From Christensenella sp. UBA3857 (lineage in GTDB: Bacteria; Bacillota; Clostridia; Christensenellales; CAG-138): a stretch of DNA of 22,865 bases. The DNA is taken from NCBI GenBank assembly GCA_002392505.1, contig DGHD01000006.1, positions 1 through 22,865 on the forward strand, in the 5' to 3' direction. The notes beneath the pieces are model-generated. The model saw only the letters and a program-made list of their open reading frames with translations, searched no databases and was not told the origin of the DNA. Each line of letters starts with the position of its first letter. The stretch's first letter is position 1. The position numbers and the translations under genes were made by a program. This document shows positions 3,336-22,865 of this stretch, piece by piece.

Positions 3336-5903
3336 ATGAATAAGCGTTTGTTCAGGGTGTTCGCCTCGGCGCTCGCCGTGCTGCTCGTAATGACGGCGTC
3401 CGTGCGTCTTCCGATGCTTGATTCGCACGCGGAAGCAGACGCCGGGCTCACCGTTGACGAGATCACCGAGTACAGCTATGAGGTTACGCCGATACTTGCG
3501 CCGTTCCCCTATTTTATCTACGTTAAGACGGATAACCCCGATCCGGAGAGCTTCATGTTCGTGGATAAGGAAAGCGTGTATTTCGGCGATGACGCGACCG
3601 GCTCGATTTCGCTGCCCGGTTCGAGTTACGGTTCGACGATCAGCACAGAGACCGATCCCGGTACGTATTACGTTTCCCCCTATGATTACGCGGACGTCGA
3701 ATACGAAAACACGTCCACCCGCCGTGTCAACGGGGGCTATATTTTCCGTTTTGACGGCGCCATACCCGACGGAGGAGAGCTTGTACTGAAAGCCCGCACC
3801 TCCCAGGGAACGAGCCTTCTCAACCATACCTATCAGGAGACCGACGTTACGATCCCCTGCCCTCAATTCAAAACGAGGCAGGACTATCTGATCGACACGT
3901 ATTCTTCGGATACCCAGTCTTTCTTTGAGAAGATGGACGCCATACAGGCGGGGCTGAACGCGATCGCCATTTATCCGCGCAGTGTTTACGACAGTTCCAG
4001 CCCGAACACCGTGACGCCTTACCCGCTGCTCGCGAGCTCGCGCTATCCGGAGCTTTCGCTCAACGAGCATTATCCCATGTACAACCTTTCAACCGGCGGA
4101 ACGCTGCTCTATAACGCATATCCGTTCGTGCTCGATTCGCTTGGCGTGCCCGGCACGATGGCAAACGTCGCGCTGATGCTCGAACCGGATGCGCAGATCA
4201 GCTACGGCAGCACTCACGCATTCGTCAACGTCACCTTCGGCGACGAAACGCATTCCTACGGCGGCGCAGGCAGGGGCGGCAACGATCCCCTTTTCACCGA
4301 GGACGTTGACAAGACCTTCACCTTCAGCGGCGCAGAAAACGATATGGGCACTCACGGCGGAGTTGAAAGCTTCGGCGTGCAGTTCGACGCATATGCCGAA
4401 GCCGCTGCGGCGGCAATGGAGCCGTACCGCGATCTTATCGCCGGCGCCACGTTCAAGCAGACGATAGGCGCGACCGGCGGCACGTGGATCCGCATTGGCA
4501 CCGAGGGCAGCTTCAACTTCGGCACGTCTTTCTCTTACGCGGTCCCGCACGGCGGCTGGGTCGAGTTCCCGTCCCAGACATGGATCGACGGCAGGTTCAT
4601 CAGCCAATATGAGAACATCGTCCTCCGCGCGAAATTCAGCGATTATCCCACCGCAAGGATACTGCTCCACGACGTGACCTACACGGGCAACGACGGGCAG
4701 GAGCATACCCAGGACGTTATCTATACTTATGTAAGCTCCGCGGACGAATGGCAGGCGCTGTATTACTACGGGCCCAACCTCAAGCTGACCCGCGCCCAGG
4801 TCGAGGAGATCGTCGCTTCCTGGACGGAGGGCAGCCGTCTTCCCGAAGATGGTCTCATCTACGACGGCAGGGAGTACCCCGGAACGCCCTTCCATAACAC
4901 CCTTGTCGAGGGGATCGAAGCGCCGGAGACATTTACCGCGGTGCTCGGCCGTTCGTACAGGCTGCCCGTCACGGTGCTTCCCGAGGACGCGACGTATCCC
5001 CAGGTCACAATGACCTCCACCGACTCCTCCGTCGTTTACTGCGGAAACGGCGCGTACTTCGGCGCGAATGCTGTCGGCACAGCCACCCTCACGATCACCA
5101 CGAACGACGGCGGCTTCTCAAAGACCTGCGTCGTAACGGTAGTGCCCGATAATGAGCTCAACGAGGCGTTGAACATCGAGGGCGGCGAGCTCGATTTCAC
5201 CCGCGGCGGCGAAAAGCTCTTCACCGTTGAGGAATGCGGCGACAGGCTCGTCGCAAAGCAGTCCGGCATTGTGGATTACTATGACTCCAGCATCGATACA
5301 ACGCTTGAGCTGAACGCCGGCGACAGGCTGTGCTTCGATTACAGGATCGGCACGGCGGATCCCTCCGATACCCTTTACGTCAGCATGGGCGGATACTACT
5401 ATATGTTCCGCGCGTATGGCAGCGATGCGTGGAGAGTCAATAATATCACCGCCCAGCAGGCAGGCACTTTTAACGTGACGTGGAACTTTATAGGCAAAGC
5501 CGACGGCTCCTTCTGTATGCTGGATAACGTGAGGATCGTCCGCAGCGGCGAACCCAATCCCACGCAGATAGTCGATCCGACGCCCACTCCCACGCCGACT
5601 CCGACGCCGACTTCCACTCCTACACCTACACCTACTCCGACGCCCACACCGACTCCGACTCCCACGCCGACTCCAACTCCGACGCCTACGCCGACTCCGA
5701 TCCCGACCGGAGCGCCGCTGCTCGGAGACGCCAACGGCGACGGTTCGGTTGGAGCTGACGACGCGCTCCTGATCCTCAGGTACTCGCTCGACATAATCGG
5801 GAGCGACGGGCTCGTGCTTGAAAACTGCGATATGAATTCGGACGGCGAGATCGACGCCTCTGACGCGCTGCTTCTTTTAAGACTTGTGATGCAGATCGGA
5901 TAA
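3336..5903 (+). CDS. Secreted multidomain protein with a bacterial Ig-like domain and C-terminal type I dockerin
   Basis: This 855-residue protein begins with a Sec signal peptide: KR near the N-terminus, a hydrophobic core at residues 8-20, and a likely cleavage near AEA at residues 32-34. Residues about 40-520 are a large extracytoplasmic region I do not recognise with certainty. The stretch at 256-302 (LLYNAYPFVLDSLGVPG ... THAFVNVTF) recalls a transglutaminase-like fold, but no cysteine sits at the expected place. Residues about 530-605 look like a BIG2-type Ig domain. Residues about 612-745 are beta-rich and jelly-roll-like. A Thr-Pro repeat linker covers residues 748-791. Residues about 793-855 form a type I dockerin with two calcium-binding segments, GDANGDGSVGADDALLILR and CDMNSDGEIDASDALLLLR. 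The dockerin should bind a cohesin, which suggests assembly on an extracellular or cell-surface scaffold. No cohesin is in this window. It is transcribed alone between its own promoter and terminator. Confidence 0.9.
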   Translation: MNKRLFRVFASALAVLLVMTASVRLPMLDSHAEADAGLTVDEITEYSYEVTPILAPFPYFIYVKTDNPDPESFMFVDKESVYFGDDATGSISLPGSSYGSTISTETDPGTYYVSPYDYADVEYENTSTRRVNGGYIFRFDGAIPDGGELVLKARTSQGTSLLNHTYQETDVTIPCPQFKTRQDYLIDTYSSDTQSFFEKMDAIQAGLNAIAIYPRSVYDSSSPNTVTPYPLLASSRYPELSLNEHYPMYNLSTGGTLLYNAYPFVLDSLGVPGTMANVALMLEPDAQISYGSTHAFVNVTFGDETHSYGGAGRGGNDPLFTEDVDKTFTFSGAENDMGTHGGVESFGVQFDAYAEAAAAAMEPYRDLIAGATFKQTIGATGGTWIRIGTEGSFNFGTSFSYAVPHGGWVEFPSQTWIDGRFISQYENIVLRAKFSDYPTARILLHDVTYTGNDGQEHTQDVIYTYVSSADEWQALYYYGPNLKLTRAQVEEIVASWTEGSRLPEDGLIYDGREYPGTPFHNTLVEGIEAPETFTAVLGRSYRLPVTVLPEDATYPQVTMTSTDSSVVYCGNGAYFGANAVGTATLTITTNDGGFSKTCVVTVVPDNELNEALNIEGGELDFTRGGEKLFTVEECGDRLVAKQSGIVDYYDSSIDTTLELNAGDRLCFDYRIGTADPSDTLYVSMGGYYYMFRAYGSDAWRVNNITAQQAGTFNVTWNFIGKADGSFCMLDNVRIVRSGEPNPTQIVDPTPTPTPTPTPTSTPTPTPTPTPTPTPTPTPTPTPTPTPTPIPTGAPLLGDANGDGSVGADDALLILRYSLDIIGSDGLVLENCDMNSDGEIDASDALLLLRLVMQIG
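5577..5708 (+). repeat. Thr-Pro coding repeat (linker of the dockerin protein)
   Basis: These 132 bp encode 44 residues of almost uninterrupted Thr-Pro, with a single Ser and a single Ile substituted. Codon use varies along the tract (ACG, ACT, ACC and ACA with CCG, CCC, CCT and CCA), so it is not a fresh slippage product. It links the globular part to the dockerin, as is usual in scaffold-bound enzymes. Confidence 0.9.
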
Positions 5904-19956: not shown

Positions 19957-20793
19957 TCAACCGTTCTCTTCGCACGACAATTCCAAAAGCTGCAGCTCGT
20001 CTCCGAGATCGCGAAGGACCGCTTTGCCGTGCGCGATCAGTTTGTACCAGTCCTTTGTCTCCCTGTCTGTTCTATCGGCGTCCTGGAGCGACATCATGGG
20101 CATGATCGGCACGTGCCTCTCCGCTTCCCCAATGCCCCATGCCTCGGGATTGATCTGGTATAATCTGAAATACAGAGTGCAGGTTTCCTCGTCTACGCTT
20201 TCCACAAGCGCAAAGCGGATCGGGAATGAGTACTTTTCGGTCGGATAAGGGGGAACGTTCCAAAAGCAGCCGTCACGGAAAAAGCAGTTAAAGCTCTCGT
20301 TTTCATCGAGCATTATGCTGTAATCCTCCCGATCGGGAGAAATGGTTTTCCCAAAGAAATAGGTCAGCGTTTCATTGACCTGTTCAAGCGTCAGCGTTCG
20401 GCAGGAAACGCCGTTGTCCTGCCGTTCAATGACGGAATCCTTATCGTTCGCTCTTCTGTACCCAAAGACAAATCTTATCAGCTCGGCGTCCTCATCCAGA
20501 TCGGTCTTCGTGTCCATGATGTTCTGCTGAACTATGTAGGTTACGAAACGATTCACCCGAATCTGATTCTCGCTGATCTCCCATGCGGGAGGCTTTTGCG
20601 TTTCCTCTGGAACGTCGGTCGTCTCCGCCTGTTCGGTCACCGTCGGTTCGGTCACCGTCGGTTCGGTCACCGTCTGCGCGGGAGCAGCTCCCCGCTTGAT
20701 CAGTGCCCTGATCGCAAAGCCCCCTGCTGTCAGAAGCACGACTGCCGCCGCGATGAGAAGCGCCTGTTTCCATCCGAATTTGTGTTTTTTCAT
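19957..20793 (-). CDS. Membrane-anchored extracytoplasmic protein of unknown function
   Basis: This 278-residue protein has one N-terminal transmembrane or signal-anchor helix (about 11-29, after KKHKFGWKQ). A low-complexity linker contains three copies of the VTEP/VTEQ motif. A soluble domain of about 200 residues, acidic with scattered Cys and aromatic residues, follows. I do not recognise the domain. GGAGG lies 6 bases before the ATG. It is separate from the moxR operon, which has its own promoter downstream. It may be reached by a transcript from the strong promoter at 21153-21181, with a leader of about 350 bases. Confidence 0.75.
   Translation of the reverse strand: MKKHKFGWKQALLIAAAVVLLTAGGFAIRALIKRGAAPAQTVTEPTVTEPTVTEQAETTDVPEETQKPPAWEISENQIRVNRFVTYIVQQNIMDTKTDLDEDAELIRFVFGYRRANDKDSVIERQDNGVSCRTLTLEQVNETLTYFFGKTISPDREDYSIMLDENESFNCFFRDGCFWNVPPYPTEKYSFPIRFALVESVDEETCTLYFRLYQINPEAWGIGEAERHVPIMPMMSLQDADRTDRETKDWYKLIAHGKAVLRDLGDELQLLELSCEENG
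20636..20673 (-). repeat. Short coding repeat (VTEP) in the anchored protein's linker
   Basis: The 15-bp plus-strand unit GTCACCGTCGGTTCG recurs about two and a half times in tandem and encodes the repeated VTEPT motif. It sits in the linker after the membrane anchor and could vary in copy number. Confidence 0.6.
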
Positions 20794-22403: not shown

Positions 22404-22562
22404 ATGATAATTGATACTGCCTTTGATTTTCGTTCAGACGCAAACGGAAGGGATCCGGACATCTGGAGCCCCATGCTTAAGGCTTATCAGCGCATTCTTT
22501 ACAGTAAACCGCTGCCCAAAACTGACTGTTCTCATACCGTCTTTCTTTTACCAAACAAATAG
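22404..22562 (+). pseudogene. DUF6994-like gene truncated by the repeat array
   Basis: From ATG 22404 the frame gives MIIDTAFDFRSDANGRDPDI followed by WSPMLKAYQRILYSKPLP. This closely recalls the N-terminus of DUF6994 proteins as I remember it (I-DT-FDF-SD ... DPD ... SP-L-YH-LLWSKPLP-NG). Directly after KPLP the frame enters the 162-bp repeat and stops at 22560-22562, 14 residues later. The gene is thus cut at about 22518. Whether its remainder lies beyond the array cannot be seen. The ribosome binding site is weak. The family name is from memory. Confidence 0.55.
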
Positions 22563-22594
22563 GGACGCCGGATGGCGTCCCTATTCGTTTGGTA
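22549..22594. repeat. Long palindrome in unit 1 (21-bp arms, GGAT loop)
   Basis: The left arm 22549-22569 and right arm 22574-22594 are complementary except at one position (A at 22557 faces C at 22586). The core is GGGACGCC-GGAT-GGCGTCCC. Transcribed in either direction it would give a very stable hairpin. Confidence 0.95.
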
Positions 22595-22616
22595 GCGGCA
22601 ATCTGATTCTGAACAC

Positions 22617-22664
22617 ACGTTCCGCTGTTTCTTGCGCGCTGCCTTACTTGCGTGTGCGGAACGT
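22617..22664. repeat. Second inverted repeat of the unit (copy 1)
   Basis: ACGTTCCGC at 22617-22625 is complementary to GCGGAACGT at 22656-22664, with 30 bases between. Three of the four differences between units 1 and 2 fall in this loop. The arms are unchanged in copy 2 at 22779-22826. Confidence 0.85.
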
Positions 22665-22665
22665 A

Positions 22666-22686
22666 CAGTTTTGCTTCGCAAAACTG
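22666..22686. repeat. Short hairpin at the unit border
   Basis: CAGTTTTGC (22666-22674) and GCAAAACTG (22678-22686) pair around TTC. The hairpin joins the end of unit 1 to the start of unit 2 and recurs at 22828-22848. At the left edge of the array only its right half is present. Confidence 0.85.
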
Positions 22687-22710
22687 ACTGTTCTCATACC
22701 GTCTTTCTTT

Positions 22711-22756
22711 TACCAAACGAATAGGGACGCCGGATGGCGTCCCTATTCGTTTGGTA
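22711..22756. repeat. Long palindrome in unit 2 (21-bp arms, GGAT loop)
   Basis: The arms 22711-22731 and 22736-22756 are perfectly complementary around GGAT. The position mismatched in unit 1 is paired here. Confidence 0.95.
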
Positions 22757-22865
22757 GCGGCAATCTGATTCTGAACACACGTTCCGCTGTTTCTTGCGTG
22801 ATGCCTTTCTTGCGTGTGCGGAACGTACAGTTTTGCTTCGCAAAACTGACTGTTCTCATACCGTC

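Follow-up and report, generated by a model that had tools for sequence, protein, structure and literature searches.

The best supported reading of the tandem array at the end of the contig described here is that it is not an ordinary repeat, but is made of insertion units that are anchored to tRNA genes. These units probably insert at the T-loop of tRNA genes, which thereby acquire a new 3' end. If this is true, essential tRNA genes can be used as landing sites without being damaged.

The window (the whole stretch of DNA that was analysed, 22,865 bases) is the entire contig C25 of genome G000, which consists of 61 contigs and is about 54% complete. Since the window spans the whole contig, the array does run past the contig end, in line with the statement in the earlier note that it is cut off there. 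As the window shows, short-read assemblies will break at tRNA genes that are followed by such arrays. TRF reported a period of 162 with 2.2 copies and 97% matches for positions 22517-22865. When the two full units were compared base by base, starting from either 22517 or 22518, exactly 4 differences in 162 bp were found (22557 A/G, 22637 C/T, 22639 C/A and 22646 A/T), which confirms the tandem 162-bp unit with four differences that had been noticed earlier. The final 31 nt of the window are an exact repeat of 22673-22703. The 162-nt unit, folded as RNA, was compared with dinucleotide shuffles and gave z-scores of -8.08 on the plus and -7.23 on the minus strand; none of 200 shuffles folded as well on either strand.

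The strand of the array was assigned by the copies of a tRNA 3' end it contains and by sister genomes, in which such arrays, when oriented in the same way, have the tRNA on their right. The features are as follows.

22517..22865, minus strand: array; in tRNA sense, leftwards from the contig end, an incomplete unit, then two full ones, then the oldest, which is truncated
22752..22771, minus strand: copy of the 20-nt 3' end of tRNA-Met(CAT), from T-loop position 57 to CCA, identical to the sister tRNA-Met genes
22590..22609, minus strand: second-unit copy of the 20-nt tRNA-Met 3' end, identical to the sister tRNA-Met genes
22711..22756, minus strand: terminator-like hairpin directly after CCA, its stem entering CCA; 21-nt arms (22711-22731/22736-22756), 100% complementary
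22549..22594, minus strand: terminator-like hairpin of the second unit; 21-nt arms (22549-22569/22574-22594), 95% complementary
22765..22861, minus strand: three-way-junction core with T-arm flanks, full unit 1; covariance model R1 80.6 bits (both window cores are among the 21 sequences that built R1), model R2 75.4 bits, E 1.4e-15
22603..22699, minus strand: three-way-junction core, full unit 2; R1 79.4 bits (same reservation), R2 74.2 bits
22779..22826, minus strand: hairpin A, 9-bp stem and loop of about 30 nt; second copy 22617-22664; helix 3, which covaries at 6/6 pairs
22828..22848, minus strand: hairpin B, CAGTTTTGC-TTC-GCAAAACTG; second copy 22666-22686; helix 2, which covaries at 6/6 pairs
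22517-22524, minus strand: half of an older hairpin B copy
22773..22855, minus strand: outer stem P1, arms 22773-22777 and 22851-22855
22611-22615 and 22689-22693, minus strand: arms of the second copy of P1

The difference in arm pairing between the two terminator-like hairpins (95% and 100%) bears out the remark that an arm difference in one unit is paired in the other. An additional inverted pair, 22659-22674/22678-22693, is 81% complementary. The position of the hairpin at 22711..22756 corresponds to that of the terminator that follows CCA in the sister genomes. In several units of Met arrays, this one included, the terminator stem reaches into the CCA of the tRNA (TACCA...TGGTA), and the palindrome thus exceeds what a terminator needs. 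The DNA fold of the core of full unit 1 has -19.1 kcal/mol and was equalled by 2 of 200 shuffles. The loop of hairpin A contains two CACGCAAG-like direct repeats (motif read by eye). Elsewhere in the window, a 24-bp tandem repeat lies inside a reading frame of 855 aa (5576-5707) and a 15-bp tandem repeat inside a minus-strand reading frame of 278 aa (20613-20674).

On the minus strand, the window unit thus reads from the last 20 nt of an elongator tRNA-Met(CAT) directly into a terminator hairpin. A nucleotide search of the genus, a check the earlier note had proposed, yielded matches in 12 of the 13 genomes, several of them in arrays inside contigs; the unit is therefore not confined to this genome, and the tandem copies are not an assembly artefact. 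In 8 sister genomes, units were found directly 3' of an intact tRNA-Met gene in a tRNA-fMet/tRNA-Met operon, while G010 has a tRNA-Met gene with a terminator only and G004 just a remnant at this gene. Because the contig ends before the tRNA-Met gene, we infer from this pattern that the window array stands behind an elongator tRNA-Met(CAT) gene beyond the contig end. The window's own genome has a similar array behind tRNA-Ala(GGC) on contig C34. According to ARAGORN, the tRNA genes in front of units are intact.

The covariance model R1, built from 21 units, was applied to 74 loci and gave 123 matches, 105 of which were used for counts. The 18 that were left out comprise 14 matches on the opposite strand that overlap stronger ones, 2 truncated by a contig end and 2 weak independent ones (L094:823-920 and L144:1026-1102). 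For 27 of the 105 units there is no same-strand tRNA upstream within the locus sequence examined, and the other 78 are preceded by a same-strand tRNA or tmRNA (19 labels). At least 10 nt are common to the unit and the 3' end of its own upstream tRNA in 66 of these 78, and in 65 this match of at least 10 nt is also better than that to any other label; 29 carry the full 20-nt 3' end, and 12 have less than 10 nt in common with the upstream tRNA. Cognate units with at least 10 nt occur at 15 tRNA species and at tmRNA. The distance from the tRNA is nearly constant, as 45 of 47 first units begin 48-55 nt past CCA.

With a broader covariance model (R2, 101 units), 124 matches were obtained in 12 of the 13 genomes of the genus, or 117 without 7 opposite-strand duplicates; G010 was the one genome in which R2 found no such type I units. 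In the family, R1 matched 14 of 103 genomes (2 of 26 genera), and R2 matched 5 of 396 genomes of the order (2 of 142 genera). The window array had no match in phage and plasmid collections, and a scan of viral contigs for the exact tRNA-end pattern found none. The same pattern was present in 4 contigs of a genome contig collection, all of them Clostridia MAGs.

In tRNA sense, a unit consists of CCA, terminator hairpin, spacer, P1 5' arm, hairpin B, hairpin A and P1 3' arm, with one extra base between the P1 3' arm and the tRNA tail. The nested inverted repeats of the earlier note are present, but are actually a terminator followed by a three-way junction, the outer stem of which repeats the T-arm of the tRNA. 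All three helices of the junction covary. In 99 distinct units, 98.5% of cells are paired, both partners have changed in 15 of 17 pairs, and covariation scores 0.577 as compared to 0.164 for shuffled data (0 of 500 shuffles as high, slid controls far lower); as the alignment was fitted to the covariance model, these values lean towards that structure. An unfitted MAFFT alignment of 21 units that was analysed by RNAalifold has double changes in 12 of 17 pairs. The covariation that the earlier note had proposed to look for is thus strong.

In other arrays, the sequence of the P1 arms tracks the T-stem of the tRNA next to them. The dinucleotide in front of GTTC agrees with the cognate T-stem at a frequency of 0.82 in the 3' arm and 0.85 in the 5' arm, as opposed to 0.41 and 0.38 when the T-stem dinucleotide is shuffled, and 0 of 2000 shuffles were as high. 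When the whole inverted arm was compared with all tRNAs, the cognate tRNA was best or tied in only 15 of 47 first units. The whole-arm test is weak because T-arms resemble each other, whereas the two-base test is clear.

Many displaced tRNA ends follow a different core, which we call type II. These units have the same architecture, and their P1 is an inverted copy of positions ~57-64. A covariance model (R3) built from 18 type II units matched 18 of 396 genomes of the order in 7 of 142 genera, including two genomes of another family and also G010. Of the 13 best R3 loci in other genera, the piece examined includes a tRNA in 10, and in 9 of these 10 a displaced 3' end lies 125-215 nt past CCA. 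A third design with a longer, multi-branched fold was seen at tRNA-Ser(GCT) of G001 (L250) and in G002 (L225); its P1 is GGGATTTG/CAAATCCC. In some gaps between copies there are genes, namely for a GNAT acetyltransferase, a DUF6572 protein, PF05635 IVS proteins and proteins without a Pfam match.

Comparison of the close relatives G001 and G002 gave a precise presence/absence pair. Behind tRNA-Arg(ACG), the two genomes are identical except for 172 bp that are extra in G001. The breakpoint, GTTC|GAATC, lies within the T-loop and is associated with a direct repeat of 20 nt. With the extra sequence come a second GAATC...CCA and a different terminator; the original 3' end and its original terminator follow farther downstream. 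The 172 bp are not copied from the sequence of G002 at this place, and slippage as the sole source was thus rejected for the tRNA-Arg case. G002 lacks a unit at tRNA-Ala(GGC), and the sequence that natively lies downstream of the tRNA there follows the last (second) displaced 3' end in G001 (87.8% over 41 nt between the native flanks). The remaining pairs are less clean: in three, no native flank could be aligned, and in the others the matches are partial or repeated. Alternatively, the presence/absence pairs could stem from recombination between the 20-nt repeats that removed a unit exactly; as such losses would look identical, the pairs do not establish gain as the direction.

Displaced copies of the 3' end were found for 12 of 41 tRNA genes in G002 and 12 of 42 in G001. 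As a control, the tRNA's own end was detected in 21 of 81 downstream pieces, compared to 110 of 6230 for the ends of other tRNAs. A set of 145 displaced copies likely includes chance matches far from the tRNA. Copies that were ranked by their distance from the tRNA had been selected by having not more than 2 mismatches in the first 12 nt, and only positions 70-76 are thus informative for decay. The identity of these positions is 0.72, 0.57, 0.52 and 0.32 for units 1-4 (n=72, 30, 18 and 8), and beyond unit 4 it is 0.50 (n=4), 0.29 and 0.14 (n=1 each). The CCA side is eroded in units distal to the tRNA; older units therefore tend to sit farther out.

These observations suggest how an array might arise. 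The window array is probably a stack of T-loop insertion units behind tRNA-Met(CAT), each of which comprises a new 3' end (57 to CCA), a new terminator, a spacer, the inverted T-arm, hairpin B, hairpin A and the direct T-arm. Entry into tRNA genes (or exit from them) would take place between positions 56 and 57 of the T-loop. On entry, a unit would give the tRNA a fresh, identical 3' end and a terminator, so that the tRNA would stay whole, and would push the old 3' end and the older units downstream, so that arrays would stack up behind the tRNA. The moving form may be DNA that is recognised via its folded P1/hairpin structure, much like integron attC sites, and a tyrosine-type recombinase provided in trans may make the crossover in the T-loop. 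A plain exchange with a circle does not explain how one core can bear the 3' ends of many tRNAs, and the small size of such circles (~170 bp) is a point against mobility as an excised circle. If the proposal is true, it predicts excised circles or junctions, a recombinase acting on the T-loop, and presence/absence differences at the strain level.

The search for an enzyme tied none to the units. Tyrosine recombinases (PF00589) are encoded in 12 of the 13 genomes of the genus, including G010, which is without type I units. By coordinates, only one PF00589 gene in the genus genomes lies beside arrays, a truncated one at the tRNA-Pro/tRNA-Ser arrays of G007. The five recombinases that were scanned out of 30 are Xer-like, and the best of them reached 65.2 bits, the cut-off of the integron integrase model TIGR02249 being 265. 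In each of two genomes, a pair of neighbouring tyrosine recombinase genes with split PF00589 matches was noticed (G007:C50:24300-26305 and G002:C8:36788-38802; L263, L264).

Other explanations have to be weighed against T-loop insertion. The units could be structured, RtT-like small RNAs that arise when transcription from the tRNA promoter reads through and that are freed at the tRNA-like ends, with selection acting on the fold and with arrays changing by recombination between the 20-nt repeats. The location of the units on the tRNA-sense strand behind tRNA promoters, the strong covariation and the annotation of E. coli rttR as a small RNA at the matching place all agree with this. So does P1, where most of the changes that are tolerated give G-U on the tRNA-sense strand (24 G-U versus 3 unpaired), which fits a fold of the sense strand, possibly as RNA. 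Hairpins A and B, however, have no G-U preference (7 G-U and 9 A-C cells beside 1818 Watson-Crick cells), which fits the expectation for DNA, whereas the terminators do have one (12 G-U versus 5 A-C). Moreover, a terminator hairpin stands between the tRNA and the unit in the sister arrays inspected, and a small RNA would leave the 3' ends of the units' own tRNAs and the exact 56|57 breakpoint unexplained. We consider this explanation unlikely.

Cognate ends at any tRNA would be accounted for at once if the units were non-autonomous transposons or retro-inserted copies that cause a 20-bp target duplication from position 57 to CCA, with a template switch or the correction of a palindrome forming the inverted arm. 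At tRNA-Arg, the direct repeat has a length of exactly 20 nt, the full 20 nt are found in 29 of the 78 units, and growth beside a fixed end is familiar from CRISPR adaptation and casposons. Nevertheless, a simple duplication would not extend upstream of position 57 with an extra base, as the direct T-arm copy does, and the terminator is exchanged along with the 3' end. Neither a transposase nor a reverse transcriptase caught the eye in the surroundings of the arrays. Cas1 (PF01867) was detected in only 4 of the 13 genomes while units are present in 12, and the idea of a Cas1-dependent CRISPR or casposon system was rejected for this reason. Transposition of this kind thus appears improbable to us. 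It is very improbable that the copies of 3' ends are scars of since-deleted phages or integrative elements that had attached at tRNA genes. The T-loop is a classic attachment region, some gaps between copies contain genes, and the truncated integrase adjoins the tRNA-Pro/tRNA-Ser arrays of G007. Scars would not be expected to have the same covarying core behind many tRNA species, nor a fixed distance and an exact boundary in both unit types, and no further PF00589 match lies beside an array by coordinates. A prophage or ICE attachment site was likewise rejected, because apart from the G007 gene no PF00589 match lies, by coordinates, beside the duplicated ends.

The architecture of the proposed T-loop insertion units recurs in the enterobacterial RtT units (RF00391). 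Like the Clostridia units, these are arranged in tandem 3' of a tRNA, each unit ends in the 3' end of that tRNA (tRNA-Tyr from position 58, 19 nt; tRNA-Pro 18 of 20 nt), and an inverted T-arm segment follows 50-60 nt past each CCA. At the E. coli tRNA-Tyr locus, end copies lie at 159, 337 and 515 nt, an inverted GGGGAAGGAT is located 60 nt past each CCA, and the unit, which is RtT according to Rfam, folds into an outer stem enclosing two hairpins. A Salmonella contig has two RtT copies behind tRNA-Pro, whose ends are those of tRNA-Pro and whose arms are cognate; the enterobacterial core, too, thus occupies different tRNAs. The core sequences of RtT and the Clostridia units differ, and we therefore claim the same plan and not membership. 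The Clostridia family also differs from RtT in that it is found at many tRNAs of a genome and that relatives differ by the presence or absence of units. RF00391 did not match the window at the gathering threshold, nor 5 + 8 further loci at relaxed E-values; as a positive control, it gave 4 matches in the E. coli piece and 2 in the Salmonella piece. Conversely, R3 did not match the E. coli tRNA-Tyr locus. No Rfam family exceeded its gathering threshold in the window, and in related loci at relaxed thresholds only tRNA and one T-box were clear, other matches being below gathering scores. The 178-bp tyrT repeats of E. coli were reportedly the subject of papers of 1978 and 1991. If T-loop insertion is real, these repeats with their tRNA 3' ends, an oddity for decades, are one case of a wider insertion system.

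Integron cassettes share with the units arrays of hairpin sites that are conserved in structure and variable in sequence, with an unpaired extra base in one arm, and some stretches between copies hold single small genes (GNAT acetyltransferase, DUF6572 protein), as cassettes do. The attC core consensus is GTTRRRY / RYYYAAC, whereas the arms of the units follow the T-loop GTTCRA of the tRNA, and it is a tRNA gene that serves as the anchor. As judged by eye, the 3' arm reads GTTC, then an additional base, then GAATC or a similar sequence, and no attC core was recognised in the units. As the scanned recombinases also score far below the cut-off, membership in integrons is not claimed. Among the three options listed in the earlier note, a MITE-like element amplified in tandem is the nearest, and no sign of a replication array was seen. 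The units are indeed dispersed (12 of 13 genomes), small, non-coding and strongly structured, as MITEs and casposons are, and casposons insert at tRNA 3' ends with target duplication. However, the terminal arms are not fixed but follow the cognate T-stem, at the frequencies given above, and the units are anchored to tRNAs; they use the same T-loop target site in different tRNAs, unlike MITEs, and membership in MITEs was rejected.

According to PMC4990558, the 23S rRNA IVS is a structured insert with complementary ends in a loop of a stable RNA, which interrupts the rRNA and leaves it fragmented. The units are also structured inserts with complementary ends, and genes for PF05635, the 23S rRNA IVS protein, lie 3' of tRNAs in the genus. 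In contrast to the IVS, a second 3' end restores the unit-bearing tRNA, and units with the three-way-junction core are non-coding. Membership in the IVS was rejected since the tRNA genes in front of the units are intact. PMC7657543 and PMC12306157 were also used for the comparison with known systems. An open-access literature search (PMC) retrieved no description of these units, which does not prove that none exists.

PF05635 has 17 matches in 9 of the 13 genomes of the genus. In ten of the 17 cases, a same-strand tRNA precedes the gene by 163-1226 nt, and displaced tRNA ends accompany 5 of the 10, which links this unexplained protein to tRNA genes. Tentatively, we can imagine a general class of bacterial mobile units in tRNA T-loops that travel as folded DNA, copy or exchange the 3' end of any tRNA they enter so that no tRNA is lost, now and then carry genes as cargo, and stack up with the newest unit proximal to the tRNA. 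The Clostridia units and tyrT/RtT would be two branches of this class, and PF05635 maybe a partner.

The tRNAs that precede PF05635 genes are Trp, Gln, Cys and Ser (L265, L267, L268, L273-L278, L280), and several of these tRNA-adjacent genes have AT-rich leaders with inverted repeats. Type II and PF05635 matches do occur in G010, the genome without type I units; the latter number four, two of them with in-frame stops (L046, L288). At tRNA-Trp of G007 (L164), about 4 kb separate the tRNA from displaced tRNA-Trp ends; this gap encodes an 876-aa repeat protein and a 265-aa protein that is HNH-like by eye and has no Pfam match.
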